Shown: positions 42,135 to 61,850 of the stretch, piece after piece
How the letters are laid out: every line of letters starts with the position of its first letter
Position numbering within the stretch: position 1 is the first letter of the stretch
NCBI GenBank assembly: GCA_016841765.1
Contig: JAENYN010000025.1
Span: 1 to 64,000 of the forward strand
DNA from: Guptibacillus hwajinpoensis
GTDB lineage: Bacteria > Bacillota > Bacilli > Bacillales > Bacillaceae_O
DNA: 64,000 nt
Direction: 5' to 3'
The notes under the pieces: generated by a model
Database searches by the model: none
What the model saw: the letters and a program-made list of their open reading frames with translations, nothing else
What the model was told of the DNA's origin: nothing
Translations under genes and position numbers: made by a program

Positions 42135-42444
42135 TTAAACACCTTCCTATTAATAGATTTTTGAAAGCAAGACTATTTTCATACTAAAAAGTAAAAAAAT
42201 AGTAGAAACCACGCTCATTAGTAGTATATAGTTATCTGATAATTGTGTAAATGATTTTTTCAGAAGATTTTACAAAAACCGACGAATCTTCTGATAATTG
42301 ACTTAAAATCTCCTATTATTTACAATGAAATGACAAAGTTATGACTTTATGCCTATTTTATCCGATTTTTTTTGATATACTGTAACCTAATGGAATATCT
42401 TGTATTATAATTTAGTTTAGAAAATATCTTTGCGGAGGAATATG
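42135..42444. other. Divergent promoter region with nested repeats
   Basis: 310 AT-rich bases between ssbB and the DUF5317 gene. They hold an inverted repeat TCAGAAGATT/AATCTTCTGA (42260-42294). A direct repeat TCTGATAATTG occurs at 42235-42245 and 42290-42300. Confidence 0.5.
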
Positions 42445-43011
42445 ATGGTTTTTGACGGAATAATTCTATCTCTGCTTATTGGTTTTTTTAGAGGTGGCAA
42501 CTTAAAAGGTATATCAGATTTGAATCTTAAATTCGGGTGGGTTTTCCCTATTTTACTTGGTATACAACTAATAATTTATTTTACCCAGAATTCTTTTACC
42601 TGGATTGCTGGCTTAAGTTCTGTTTCTTTTATGCTGGTTTATGTTGTAGGGCTTTATTTCCTGTGGGTCAACCGTACTTACGAAGGTTTTGGCATTTTGT
42701 TTTTTGGAGTACTTTTGAATTTTATTGTAATGCTGGTGAATGGCGGAAGAATGCCTGTATCAGCAGAAGCGGCTACAATTTTGGATCCCCATTATATAGA
42801 AGCGTTGAAAAATGGACTTTATGCAAAACACACTATTTTGGACAGTTCTACTAAGCTGGGTTTCTTGGGTGATATTATTGCCCTTCAGCCGCCCTATCCT
42901 CGTACTCAGGTAATCAGCATTGGGGATATCATTATGAATATAGGGGCGTTTATATTTTTACAGCATCTTATGTTAAAACATAGACCGAAAAGAGAAATCA
43001 GGCATGTGTGA
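42445..43011 (+). CDS. DUF5317 membrane protein
   Basis: 188 residues, about five membrane helices. It matches DUF5317: FDGIILSLLIGFFRGGNLKG at the start, NGGRMPVS in the middle and GDIIALQPPYP near the end. The function is unknown. The ATG at 42445 is seven bases after GGAGG; the ATG just before it is also possible. The next two genes are a 28-aa peptide and a c-di-GMP enzyme in the same direction. Confidence 0.8.
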   Translation: MVFDGIILSLLIGFFRGGNLKGISDLNLKFGWVFPILLGIQLIIYFTQNSFTWIAGLSSVSFMLVYVVGLYFLWVNRTYEGFGILFFGVLLNFIVMLVNGGRMPVSAEAATILDPHYIEALKNGLYAKHTILDSSTKLGFLGDIIALQPPYPRTQVISIGDIIMNIGAFIFLQHLMLKHRPKREIRHV

Positions 43012-43030: not shown

Positions 43031-43117
43031 ATGAATAAGAAATCGATCTTGATTAATCTAGTCATCATTGCATCAGTTATTATCTCACTTACTTCTGGTT
43101 TCCAGGTGGGACCTTAA
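43031..43117 (+). CDS. 28-aa hydrophobic peptide
   Basis: Encodes MNKKSILINLVIIASVIISL followed by TSGFQVGP. Two positive residues, a hydrophobic core and a short polar tail resemble a signal peptide or small exported peptide. The ribosome site AAAGGAGGTGATATA is nearly perfect. It is only 19 bases after DUF5317 and 61 bases before the GGDEF/HD-GYP start, so all three are likely co-transcribed. It was too short for ordinary gene finding. Confidence 0.65.
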   Translation: MNKKSILINLVIIASVIISLTSGFQVGP

Positions 43118-43178: not shown

Positions 43179-45026
43179 ATGAATAAGAGCTTTTTAAAAG
43201 ATAAAGTTAATTTTTTTAACTTTTATGTTAATTTGGTTATTTTCGGCGGTATCTTTCTTTTACTTTTCAGTCTTAACTACGATATTCCTTCACATAACGA
43301 ATGGATACTAATCTATTTCTTTATAGGGTCAATCCTCATTTTTAGTCACTGGGCGTTTCGCCTTCCTCCTTCCGGCGCATACTTTTCCATGGATTCTTCA
43401 GTGTATCTTGCATCCCTATTCCTTTACGGTTTAAGCTATTCACTTTACCTATTGATATTTTCTATCCTGATAACAGCCTTTGTTAAAAAAGGATTTACGG
43501 TAAAAATGCACCTTTTCAATCTTTCCGTTTATTCCACTGCATTAATTTTTGCATATCAAACCTTTTTATGGACAGGATCTACAATAGGTCCGTTTGATAA
43601 TACAATGTTCTATTCGTATATGGCAGCTCTTGCTGTATATTTTTTAATCAACACAGCATTGGTAATGGCTTACTATTCATTATTAAAATCTGAACCTTTT
43701 CTTTCATTCTATTTAAACGCTTTGAAAGAATCATTGGCAAGTTATATTACTACACTGCTTTTATCAGTGATATTAATGATTTTGGTCAATACACACCATA
43801 TTTTCGGCCTATTCTTATATTCAAGCATCGGAATGCTGGTTGCTGTAACGTTTAAGCAGCACTTCAGGCTTTTTGAAGAGCTTTCTAAAAAAGCTATAAA
43901 AGACTACCTGACCGGTTTATACAACCACGGATTTTTTGAAGAAGAACTTGAGAAAGCATTGCGGTATGCCAGAGAAGGTGAAAAAAAACTCACCCTTTCT
44001 ATGTTTGATATGGACGATTTCAAAAAATATAACGATACACACGGGCATTATAAAGGAGACCAGTTACTGGAGTTTGTGGCTAAAAAGGTCAAGGAAGAAG
44101 TAACAAATGGTGATTGGATTGTTGCACGTTACGGCGGGGAAGAATTTGCAATTTTAATGCCTGACACCTCCCAGGAAGAAGCTATTATATTTATGGATAG
44201 ACTGAGGAAAAAAATAAACGATTCTTATTTCGAAGGCGCTGAGATTTTCCCATTCGGCTGTATCAGTTTTTCGGTCGGAGTTGCCGAATATGAAGAAGGT
44301 ATGCATGACAAATCGCAGATGATTGACCGTGCGGATGAAGCCATGTACCTGGCAAAAGCTAAAGGTAAGAACCAGGTTTTAGCCTTTAATGAAGATACAG
44401 AGCAGTTTCTGATTAGTGATATTGAAAAAGAAATCGATGAACTTGAACAGCCTCTCAGTTTCTTTTTAGCTAAGGATATCAACACATACAAGCATAGTAA
44501 GCGGGTGTTTAAATATGCTGTAGAATTCAGCAGCATGTTAAGTTTGAACCAATATGAAAAACAAACTTTGATACTTGGTGCTTTAATTCATGATATCGGG
44601 AAAATAGAAATCCCTCGCACAATACTCCAGAAAAAAGGGAAGCTCACATCCGATGAGTGGGAGATTGTTAAAAAACATGTCACATGGGGAAAAGATTTAG
44701 TTGAACAGCATAAGCATTTAAAGCACCTGTCCCCTCTTGTAGAGCTGCATCATGAACGATATGACGGCAAAGGGTATCCACACGGCCTGGTTGGAAAAGA
44801 AACCCCGCGACTGGCCCGGATTCTAAGTGTGATTGACGCTTTTGATGCGATGACGACAGAAAGGCCGTACCAGGTCACTAAATCGTTTGAAGAAGCAATC
44901 ATTGAGCTAAGAAGTTGCAGCGGAACCCAATTTGATCCCTTACTAGTAGAGCCGTTTATTGAGTTAATTGAACTGAATTATTTAGAAAAGTCATATACAG
45001 AATGTGATTCCGTAAAGAATGCATAG
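43179..45026 (+). CDS. Membrane c-di-GMP enzyme with GGDEF and HD-GYP domains
   Basis: 615 residues. About seven N-terminal helices (residues 10-240) act as a membrane sensor. The GGDEF domain (about 255-420) has the active-site variant RYGGEEFAIL (GGEEF) and the upstream MFDMDDFKKYND. The HD-GYP domain (about 440-605) has LGALIHDIGKIEIP, HHERYDGKGYPHGL and LSVIDAFDAMTTERPY. Both a cyclase and a hydrolase of c-di-GMP may be active, so its net effect is unclear. The ATG at 43179 follows TTTTGGAGG; an in-frame start at 43143 is less likely. A c-di-GMP riboswitch begins 127 bases after its stop. Confidence 0.9.
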   Translation: MNKSFLKDKVNFFNFYVNLVIFGGIFLLLFSLNYDIPSHNEWILIYFFIGSILIFSHWAFRLPPSGAYFSMDSSVYLASLFLYGLSYSLYLLIFSILITAFVKKGFTVKMHLFNLSVYSTALIFAYQTFLWTGSTIGPFDNTMFYSYMAALAVYFLINTALVMAYYSLLKSEPFLSFYLNALKESLASYITTLLLSVILMILVNTHHIFGLFLYSSIGMLVAVTFKQHFRLFEELSKKAIKDYLTGLYNHGFFEEELEKALRYAREGEKKLTLSMFDMDDFKKYNDTHGHYKGDQLLEFVAKKVKEEVTNGDWIVARYGGEEFAILMPDTSQEEAIIFMDRLRKKINDSYFEGAEIFPFGCISFSVGVAEYEEGMHDKSQMIDRADEAMYLAKAKGKNQVLAFNEDTEQFLISDIEKEIDELEQPLSFFLAKDINTYKHSKRVFKYAVEFSSMLSLNQYEKQTLILGALIHDIGKIEIPRTILQKKGKLTSDEWEIVKKHVTWGKDLVEQHKHLKHLSPLVELHHERYDGKGYPHGLVGKETPRLARILSVIDAFDAMTTERPYQVTKSFEEAIIELRSCSGTQFDPLLVEPFIELIELNYLEKSYTECDSVKNA

Positions 45027-45045
45027 TACTCATGCATTCTTTTTT
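45017..45045 (+). terminator. Terminator of the c-di-GMP enzyme gene
   Basis: GAATGCAT and ATGCATTC pair around AGTACTC; TTTTTT follows. It overlaps the end of the gene. Confidence 0.75.
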
Positions 45046-45152
45046 ATTGAATTTCACTAACTTAGCCCTAATTTCATCGTAACCTTATTGTGTTTTGAAT
45101 AATTATTTCCTATGATAAAGATGAGTCTTTATCTCAAAATTCTACATAAATC

Positions 45153-45243
45153 GTCGAAAAGGCAAAATCATTGAAAAATGATGACGCAAAACTAAAGGGG
45201 CTTCATGATGACATTAAGTGATCATATGCCAGCCAGCTGCCGA
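45153..45243 (+). ncRNA. c-di-GMP-I riboswitch (GEMM) before the 38-aa gene
   Basis: Landmarks of the GEMM-I aptamer are in order: GGCAAA (45161), an ATCAT-(T)GAAAA-ATGAT hairpin with a GNRA-type loop, GACGCAAAACTAAAGGGG (45183-45200) and TATGCCAGCCAGCTGCC (45225-45241). The last block pairs with GGCA at the start to close P1. Downstream, CCTTCTTC (45249-45256) can pair with GAAGGAGG (45267-45274), hiding the ribosome site of the next gene. This suggests translational control. Confidence 0.8.
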
Positions 45244-45248
45244 AACGG

Positions 45249-45274
45249 CCTTCTTCGGTTTATGGTGAAGGAGG
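45249..45274 (+). promoter_or_regulatory. Shine-Dalgarno sequestering hairpin
   Basis: CCTTCTTC at 45249-45256 pairs with GAAGGAGG at 45267-45274 (seven Watson-Crick and one G-U pair), with a ten-base loop. It follows the aptamer directly and covers the ribosome site of the 38-aa gene. Confidence 0.6.
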
Positions 45275-45284
45275 AACAGGAAAC

Positions 45285-45401
45285 ATGGAAGAATCATGGC
45301 TGACTCCAAAGAGGAAGAAACAGCTATTCTACAGCTTCATCGTGTTAGGGGCGGTTATTCTGGGCACTGTTGTTTCAGTCGCTGCAAACGCTGCTTTGTG
45401 A
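45285..45401 (+). CDS. 38-aa single-helix membrane protein under a riboswitch
   Basis: Starts MEESWLTPKRKKQLFYSFIV, then a membrane helix LGAVILGTVVSVAANAAL to the end. The ATG is ten bases after GGAGG. A terminator follows at 45404, so it seems to be the only gene in the transcript and the only target of the c-di-GMP riboswitch. No family was recognised. The positively charged stretch before the helix predicts a cytoplasmic N-terminus. Confidence 0.7.
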   Translation: MEESWLTPKRKKQLFYSFIVLGAVILGTVVSVAANAAL

Positions 45402-45403
45402 AA

Positions 45404-45436
45404 GTGTCGCCTCTAAGTGGGGCGGCTCTTTCTTTT
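45404..45436 (+). terminator. Terminator of the 38-aa gene
   Basis: GTCGCC pairs with GGCGGC (one G-U pair) around TCTAAGTGG, followed by TCTTTCTTTTG. Confidence 0.65.
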
Positions 45437-45556
45437 GCTTCATTATCACACCGGCTTTCCCGATAAGCAAGACCGTACGACTGCTTTTGTGAAGCGGCAT
45501 AACCAAATCTATCAACTTGCACAAAAAAGAAGCAGAAAGTTACTGCTTCCAATGGA

Positions 45557-46363
45557 TTACTTCCGGTTCGTTATTTGGTAAGGTACTTTTCCAATGAAAA
45601 ACGTAGTTGACCTTTCACTGTCCTCTTCAAACAGTCCGACTTTAAACGGAACCTGTCCATAATGATCGATCACTTCCTTAACAGGCCCGTCACCATTCGG
45701 CTCACAGAAAATAAGGTTGCCTCCTTCAAGAAGGACTTGTTTACATTGAGCAGCCAATTCATCTGAATGAAATTCTTCGCCCGGCTGCAGACCAAAAAGA
45801 TCCTCATACTCTGCTGCTGCCGCTTTTCGATTGGATACAGCAATATAAACCGCATCAAGTTTATATCTATCATTCTTTATTTTCAGAAGGCGGTTCAGGC
45901 GTTCCTCTTCAGATTCACCCCATTCAATAAAAAATGGGTACGGACAGGGAGAATCTTCGCGTTCCCTTTCGATGAACAGCATGCTCCATTTCAGCAGGTC
46001 CCCGTTTTCCTGCAGCCGGCTGCCAGGCAAAGGACCAATAGTATTTAATCCTTTTTCTTTCAGCCCCCTGGCTTCCTGTTCTATATCATTCGTTCTCATC
46101 GCAAAAGTTAATAAATGGTCTCCTTTATCCTGTTCAGCTGCCACTTGCTGAATCAATCTATTATCCCGTTCCGTTTCGACCTTGCGGGAATCCCGGATTC
46201 CAATCCATTCAATATATGGAAGGCCGAAAAAAGCAAGTGTGTTATACGTCCCCCATGATTCATGTTCCCCGCCCAAAAAAGCCCGGATTCCATAGCGGCC
46301 GGCTTCTTCCATTGATTGCATCGGATCTAGCGAAAAATGGACAAGATGATCAAATTTCATCAT
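45557..46363 (-). CDS. VOC-superfamily protein (glyoxalase-like domain)
   Basis: 268 residues. It begins MMKFDHLVHFSLDPMQSMEE and has a second half (KLDAVYIAVSNRKAAAAEYE, LFGLQPGEEF) of the same fold, so it is a duplicated VOC module of the glyoxalase-like type. The substrate is unknown. GGAG precedes the ATG pair. A REP-like unit and the VanZ gene lie upstream. Confidence 0.72.
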   Translation of the reverse strand: MMKFDHLVHFSLDPMQSMEEAGRYGIRAFLGGEHESWGTYNTLAFFGLPYIEWIGIRDSRKVETERDNRLIQQVAAEQDKGDHLLTFAMRTNDIEQEARGLKEKGLNTIGPLPGSRLQENGDLLKWSMLFIEREREDSPCPYPFFIEWGESEEERLNRLLKIKNDRYKLDAVYIAVSNRKAAAAEYEDLFGLQPGEEFHSDELAAQCKQVLLEGGNLIFCEPNGDGPVKEVIDHYGQVPFKVGLFEEDSERSTTFFIGKVPYQITNRK

Positions 46364-61380: not shown

Positions 61381-61729
61381 CCCACAGGCCTCCCCCGTTA
61401 GAATTTTCAGTAAACATAATTATAAGGGTTGATGGGCAGATACACAACCTTCAACGCTTTATCAAATTAATGCTGTATTGAGTTTAAAAGCTATAATTCT
61501 CAATCAGCATGTAAGGGTTCTCACTTGTGGGTCTTTAATATGGGCGCCAACCACTAGACTTAACAACCTGTATACCGAGGATGCAAAATTCTCCATTATA
61601 TCCACTTTATGAACTTTTTTAGAACCCTTGCCCAATACCCTATTCTTTCCAGGTGCTTTTGCAGTAAAATAGTATCATGACAATATTCACAGGAACTTGT
61701 CAAATTGCACACACCCAGAACACATACAT
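61381..61729. other. Divergent promoter region of metA and cheW operon
   Basis: 349 bases without a gene. It should hold the metA promoter (leftwards) and the promoter of the riboswitch-led operon (rightwards). I could not place boxes with confidence. Confidence 0.35.
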
Positions 61730-61732
61730 ATG

Positions 61733-61813
61733 TTTTCGGCAAACCGGCTGAAAGGCCGGGACGCAAAGCTACAGGGGCTACCTCTATCCCAGATAGACAC
61801 GCCAGCCAGTTGC
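61733..61813 (+). ncRNA. c-di-GMP-I riboswitch (GEMM) before cheW
   Basis: GGCAAACCGGCTGAAAGGCC then GGGACGCAAAGCTACAGGGG and GCCAGCCAGTTGC are the GEMM-I core in order, including a CCGGCT-GAAA-GGCCGG hairpin and closing P1 pairing. An intrinsic terminator follows at 61851, so control is probably by premature termination. Confidence 0.85.
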
Positions 61814-61850
61814 TCTTCTGTTCCAGAAGATTAATTGAGCCTGCTTTTGC

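Follow-up and report, generated by a model that had tools for sequence, protein, structure and literature searches.

Few effectors of c-di-GMP are, to our knowledge, known in Gram-positive bacteria. The described systems closest to the locus presented here are the c-di-GMP-I (GEMM-I, Rfam RF01051) riboswitches, of which both ON and OFF types are known (PMC9262584). These include Vc2 of Vibrio cholerae, a translational OFF switch in which, as we propose here, the stability of P1 sets expression at the level of translation (PMC9262584).

Our locus lies in a 64,000-nt stretch of Guptibacillus hwajinpoensis DNA (the window). It shares with RF01051 riboswitches a full-length aptamer, a G at the ligand contact and a translational control region. 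It departs from them in two ways: a membrane micropeptide is its only target, and the switch relies on a long closing helix, the 3′ strand of which falls within the loop of the hairpin that holds the Shine-Dalgarno (SD) sequence. Vc2 is described as OFF (PMC9262584); the window switch is predicted to be ON. A second point of comparison is the epsC/EAR exopolysaccharide operons of Bacillus (RF01735), which encode Wzz, a tyrosine kinase and CpsB. Some members of the micropeptide family that have no linked aptamer precede such operons, whereas the window copy lies outside one.

We propose that the riboswitch is an ON gate for an N-in micropeptide of a Bacillales family that aids the change from motile to sessile life, a reading that we consider evenly balanced between right and wrong. 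With an unnamed membrane micropeptide as its recurrent target, this riboswitch would offer an output of c-di-GMP that is direct and open to testing in many relatives of Bacillus. Since gene finders and family libraries easily overlook proteins this short, riboswitches of this kind may have been recorded as lacking a target.

Layout of the riboswitch unit

The aptamer matches RF01051 from end to end, scoring 71.2 bits where the gathering score is 35 (E = 5.9e-12). A covariance model of our own (R1) gave it 82.2 bits, the window aptamer being among the 23 training sequences of that model. At the ligand-contact position, which we take to be G20, with G marking the c-di-GMP form and A the cAG form, the window carries G. 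We therefore predict that this aptamer binds c-di-GMP rather than cAG.

Features of the riboswitch unit and its upstream neighbours in window coordinates
Feature	Position	Strand	Remarks
DUF5317 protein	42430-43011	+	recurrent partner of GGDEF/HD-GYP gene
Membrane GGDEF + HD-GYP protein, 627 aa	43143-45026	+	upstream neighbour
Intrinsic terminator stem of upstream gene	45014-45042	+	11 pairs, then T run; z −4.87, 0/200 shuffles
Extended P1, 5′ strand CATAAATCG	45145-45153	+	overlaps first 3 nt of aptamer model
c-di-GMP-I (GEMM-I) aptamer	45151-45244	+	RF01051, model 1-87/87
Anti-SD strand CCTTCTTC	45249-45256	+	8 pairs with 45267-45274
Extended P1, 3′ strand CGGTTTATG	45256-45264	+	within SD-hairpin loop
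SD strand GAAGGAGG	45267-45274	+	from sequence and pairing with anti-SD
38-aa micropeptide frame MEESWLTPKRKKQLFYSFIVLGAVILGTVVSVAANAAL	45285-45401	+	predicted single-pass membrane, N-in
Intrinsic terminator stem	45406-45426	+	directly 3′ of micropeptide stop codon; z −5.07, 0/200 shuffles

The ATG of the 38-aa frame lies 10 nt past the SD. As the upstream gene ends in its own terminator, the unit probably has a transcript of its own; a search of 44900-45560 revealed no sigma-70-type promoter. Downstream, a glyoxalase-like gene runs towards the unit on the minus strand (45557-46363), and together with the terminators on both sides this convergent arrangement means that the unit carries the micropeptide alone. 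That a c-di-GMP-class aptamer has a predicted membrane micropeptide as its sole product is thus well supported by the sequence. The original prediction had described this arrangement, consisting of a GEMM-I aptamer, a hairpin sequestering the SD, a 38-aa frame and a terminator. The aptamer was confirmed by the full-length Rfam match, the hairpin comprises eight pairs including one G-U, and the terminator stem was outmatched by no shuffle. The proposal that the riboswitch serves one micropeptide is supported both in the window and by 62 further linked copies.

The upstream gene had been named as a GGDEF/HD-GYP enzyme, and its product indeed has GGDEF (5e-39) and HD_5 (2.4e-32) domains in which both signature motifs look intact by eye. 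Genes for GGDEF/HD-GYP proteins, DUF5317 proteins or both lie within about 1.6 kb of the micropeptide in the window genome (G000), its congener (G001) and two other genomes (G204 and G096), so that 4 of 78 genomes, belonging to three families, share this neighbourhood. Since these genes are found both before and after the peptide, it could be a feedback partner of the neighbouring membrane enzyme. We consider this distinctly improbable: the arrangement concerns just 4 of 99 family copies, two of them from congeners, and most copies have other neighbours.

A second small frame lies at this locus. Between the DUF5317 and GGDEF/HD-GYP genes, a strong SD precedes a 28-aa membrane peptide (MNKKSILINLVIIASVIISLTSGFQVGP; 43031-43117, plus strand), and similar peptides of 28-35 aa with a conserved LTSG[FW] end accompany the same genes in G001, G204 and G096. 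It is possibly a signal peptide of the DUF5317-GGDEF/HD-GYP pair.

Two helices that compete around the SD

In the window, the 5′ flank of the aptamer can pair with the linker to extend P1 into a long closing helix, and a further GAA (45156-45158) can pair with 45251-45253. This pairing is additional to the features noted in the original prediction. The SD hairpin folds locally with −15.5 kcal/mol (z −1.80); as 15 of 200 shuffles fold as well, the hairpin alone is only mildly unusual. Across linked loci, too, SD-hairpin energies were little better than those of shuffled linkers.

In the long-linker class of platforms, the linker just beyond the anti-SD pairs with the 5′ flank of the aptamer. 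For 12 genus representatives, pairing of each flank with its own linker summed to −164.2 kcal/mol; when linkers were permuted among the same genera, the mean was −110.8 kcal/mol and 0 of 20000 permutations did as well. A CUCC anti-SD occurs in 10 of the 12 representatives (mean in shuffles, 0.97), and the window has the form CUUC. The closing helix and the SD hairpin are mutually exclusive in all 28 unique long-linker platforms, and in 23 of them the closing helix has z < −1.5. (Two linked loci share a sequence, so that 62 of the 63 platforms are unique; constrained folding used 63.) The locus has the feature that defines a translational riboswitch, namely mutually exclusive, covarying helices that control the SD.

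We also folded the window RNA with the aptamer enforced. The SD-hairpin and closing-helix states differ little in energy. With the aptamer held in place, the SD hairpin fell from 0.89 to 0.74, while the closing helix rose from 0.11 to 0.25 and SD exposure from 0.17 to 0.30; once the closing helix was formed, the SD was 0.90 unpaired. From the exclusion of the SD hairpin by the closing helix and from this shift, we infer that translation is ON with c-di-GMP, a direction that the original prediction did not give. In the proposed mechanism, the anti-SD would pair with the SD when ligand is absent, keeping translation low. Binding of c-di-GMP would fold and hold the aptamer and thereby favour the long closing helix. 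Because the 3′ strand of that helix lies in the SD-hairpin loop, both helices cannot coexist, and its formation would free the SD so that the peptide is made.

The same parts could also be arranged as an OFF switch, with the closing helix as the default and the SD hairpin in the liganded RNA, such that c-di-GMP lowers translation; both signs are known for GEMM-I switches (PMC9262584). Constrained folding of all linked loci, a cruder method, gave no clear direction; among the 29 of the long class, the SD became freer in 2 and less free in 7, which leans toward this alternative. Two points make it unlikely. In the window, enforcing the aptamer raised the closing helix and somewhat exposed the SD, and the closing helix encloses the aptamer, so that ligand would be expected to stabilise it.

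The ON mechanism was drawn from platforms with long linkers. In the short-linker class, pairing between flank and linker was unconvincing (median z about 0; 197 of 20000 permutations as good). These riboswitches would work otherwise; at several loci, the 3′ end of the aptamer may pair with the start codon.

A Bacillales-wide micropeptide family and its link to GEMM-I

Several results indicate that the 38-aa frame, which the original prediction had read as a single-helix protein of no recognised family, is very probably translated. With G001, the nearest relative and the single congener compared, it shares 97% identity as a peptide and 86% as DNA; the changes number 14.0 for 28.3 synonymous sites (pS 0.49) but 2.0 for 82.7 non-synonymous sites (pN 0.02). 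In the family, pS exceeded pN in all 161 pairs compared, which overlap and are not independent. The window peptide contains one hydrophobic 19-mer (mean 2.34), in keeping with the claimed single helix, and its orientation is predicted to be N-in. The peptide was also correctly described as falling into no recognised family: profile searches gave no Pfam or NCBIfam match, and the best PDB hit of the family had E = 1.1, nothing being significant. Among the matches listed in full-text searches of the literature on this topic, none described such a micropeptide family.

Searching 397 genomes of the order with the single sequence yielded matches in 30 (E ≤ 0.1), and a 16-member profile then matched in 96 of the 397 (E ≤ 0.01), some matches being spurious long frames. 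The final set of 99 copies was drawn from 78 Bacillales-type genomes, which represent 32 genera in 18 families. Because copies within a genus are related, these and later counts overstate independence. Approximately 22 profile matches were left out, mostly for E values of about 0.001 or worse, long frames or contig edges; three of them had E near 1e-4. A scan of contigs with named organisms also placed family loci in Anoxybacillus vitaminiphilus, Anoxybacillus calidus, Bacillus tianshenii and Metabacillus iocasae (four loci).

We call the family WLTPEE. Its build is a [WFY]-L-T-P-E-E head, a basic stretch and one helix, with N-in orientation predicted. A single hydrophobic helix whose N side is the more basic one occurs in all 94 distinct peptides, and almost all keep a hydrophilic [WFY]-x-T-P-E-E head; of the peptides with a residue at the position in question, 93 of 93 have the proline of the T-P motif and 65 of 92 the head W. 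The window peptide has the [WFY]-x-T-P head, the basic stretch and the helix, with the first E replaced by K. From its sequence, it is a member of an unnamed family found throughout Bacillales.

Some other resemblances were set aside. Matches of relatives in the Pfam, NCBIfam and PDB searches (ETRAMP, DUF2116, phospholamban and similar) were weak and judged to be chance, and class-wide matches outside the order, also weak and mostly inside longer frames, were read in the same way. The N-terminus of Wzz/EpsA, up to its first membrane helix, likewise has a short basic stretch and then a membrane helix; however, its profile match to the micropeptide was weak (probability 30.9 over 25 columns, 16% identity), which is no evidence of homology, and we rejected this relationship.

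A small, single-helix peptide with basic residues and its own terminator also resembles a type I toxin, here under riboswitch control. This is highly improbable given the hydrophilic head conserved in almost all of the 94 peptides, the strong purifying selection and the envelope and exopolysaccharide neighbours described below.

We scored linkage with the covariance model built from 23 aptamers and with Rfam. Of the 99 copies, 63 have a GEMM-I aptamer 13-60 nt ahead of their start codon and in the same orientation; these linked copies span 62 genomes, 23 genera and 15 families. The remaining 36 copies have no GEMM-I, and 16 genomes have unlinked copies only. Rfam scans found GEMM-I near the peptide in 9 of 20 loci (scanned from 29 newly found) and in 8 of a further 10. 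GEMM-I is itself common, occurring in 351 of the 397 genomes, yet with only a few per genome the 13-60 nt spacing is not expected by chance. The recurrence of this pairing in many Bacillus-like bacteria, which the original prediction did not note, suggests that micropeptides of a so far unnamed family, under control of the signal, take part in the decision between swimming and settling.

Eight of the 63 linked aptamers (L192, L127, L133, L134, L142, L146, L153 and L155) have an A in place of the ligand-contact G. Their sequence makes a cAG or mixed response possible at these loci, but not in the window.

The window genome contains a different micropeptide target as well. At locus L004 (1610-1976), a c-di-GMP-I riboswitch precedes a 34-aa Cys-containing peptide, with a similar 31-aa copy downstream.

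Neighbourhoods, promoters and a possible role

Genes beside family copies cluster into Wzz, tyrosine kinase, CpsB phosphatase, nucleotidyltransferases and sugar transferases, and into LCP (named by reading), VanZ, cell-wall binding and amidase proteins. Of the 99 copies, 14 (8 of 63 linked and 6 of 36 unlinked), from six families, have genes of the exopolysaccharide kinase operon (Wzz, tyrosine kinase, CpsB) no more than about 1.6 kb away, compared to 1 of 45 GEMM-I loci outside the family (p = 0.037 in Fisher's test). Consistent with the epsC/EAR comparison, epsC RNA was present in 3 of 20 loci scanned, a subset of those without linked GEMM-I. Since the only strong CpsB match in the window genome sits on another contig, the exopolysaccharide link comes from relatives. 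In a Pfam scan of 102 of 114 neighbour proteins, the only families shared among the 25 commonest of 136 were parts of two-component systems and transporters, zinc ribbons and HTH domains.

Promoters were scored against TAAA-N14-16-GCCGATAW, taken here as the sigma-D consensus. Sites resembling it (p < 0.05) precede 43 of the 99 copies (24 of 63 linked, 19 of 36 unlinked) but 10 of 43 control GEMM-I loci (p = 0.024; 43 of 45 were scorable). For linked copies alone, the excess was not significant (24 of 63 versus 10 of 43, p = 0.14). By the same consensus, the window copy lacks such a site (score 6 of 12, p = 0.87), as does the congener copy.

In one family, some genomes have at least two copies of the micropeptide gene, one linked to GEMM-I and one with a sigma-D-like promoter only. 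These paralogues are about 0.5-5 kb apart (L125, L139, L141, L168, L176 and related loci).

Because of the neighbourhoods and promoters of its relatives, the micropeptide most likely serves as a small regulator that sits in the membrane and governs the switch from motile to sessile life. At high c-di-GMP, the peptide would act in the membrane to help this change, its target most likely being cell-envelope or exopolysaccharide machinery. The neighbours, including exopolysaccharide kinases, GGDEF/HD-GYP genes and sigma-D-like promoters, suggest where to look for function.

The promoters could instead signify that motile cells make the peptide as c-di-GMP rises and that it acts on the motor, as a flagellar brake or a modulator of chemotaxis. 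A second c-di-GMP-I riboswitch in the window (61728-61817, plus strand; 65.5 bits) precedes CheW-like and chemoreceptor-like genes (named by reading, with no family search), which fits this idea. Nevertheless, no flagellar family is among the 25 commonest Pfam families of the 102 neighbour proteins (111 rarer families were present besides), and with the window copy itself lacking a sigma-D-like site, we regard a role at the motor as improbable.

The preferred role in the motile-to-sessile change can be extended to a general rule for Bacillales, in which c-di-GMP-switched micropeptides would be transcribed when cells are motile, translated only when c-di-GMP is raised, and start matrix production by a direct action on the tyrosine-kinase machinery for exopolysaccharide. 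Although this broad version is doubtful, it would, if true, mean that an RNA-to-micropeptide route replaces a c-di-GMP-binding protein.

Finally, contig C3 of the window genome carries a pair of c-di-GMP-I riboswitches (L005 and L008) that share a strand and are separated by about 700 nt. The second precedes a small SinI-like frame and then a SinR-like repressor, both named by reading only; c-di-GMP control of this biofilm master switch would be notable.
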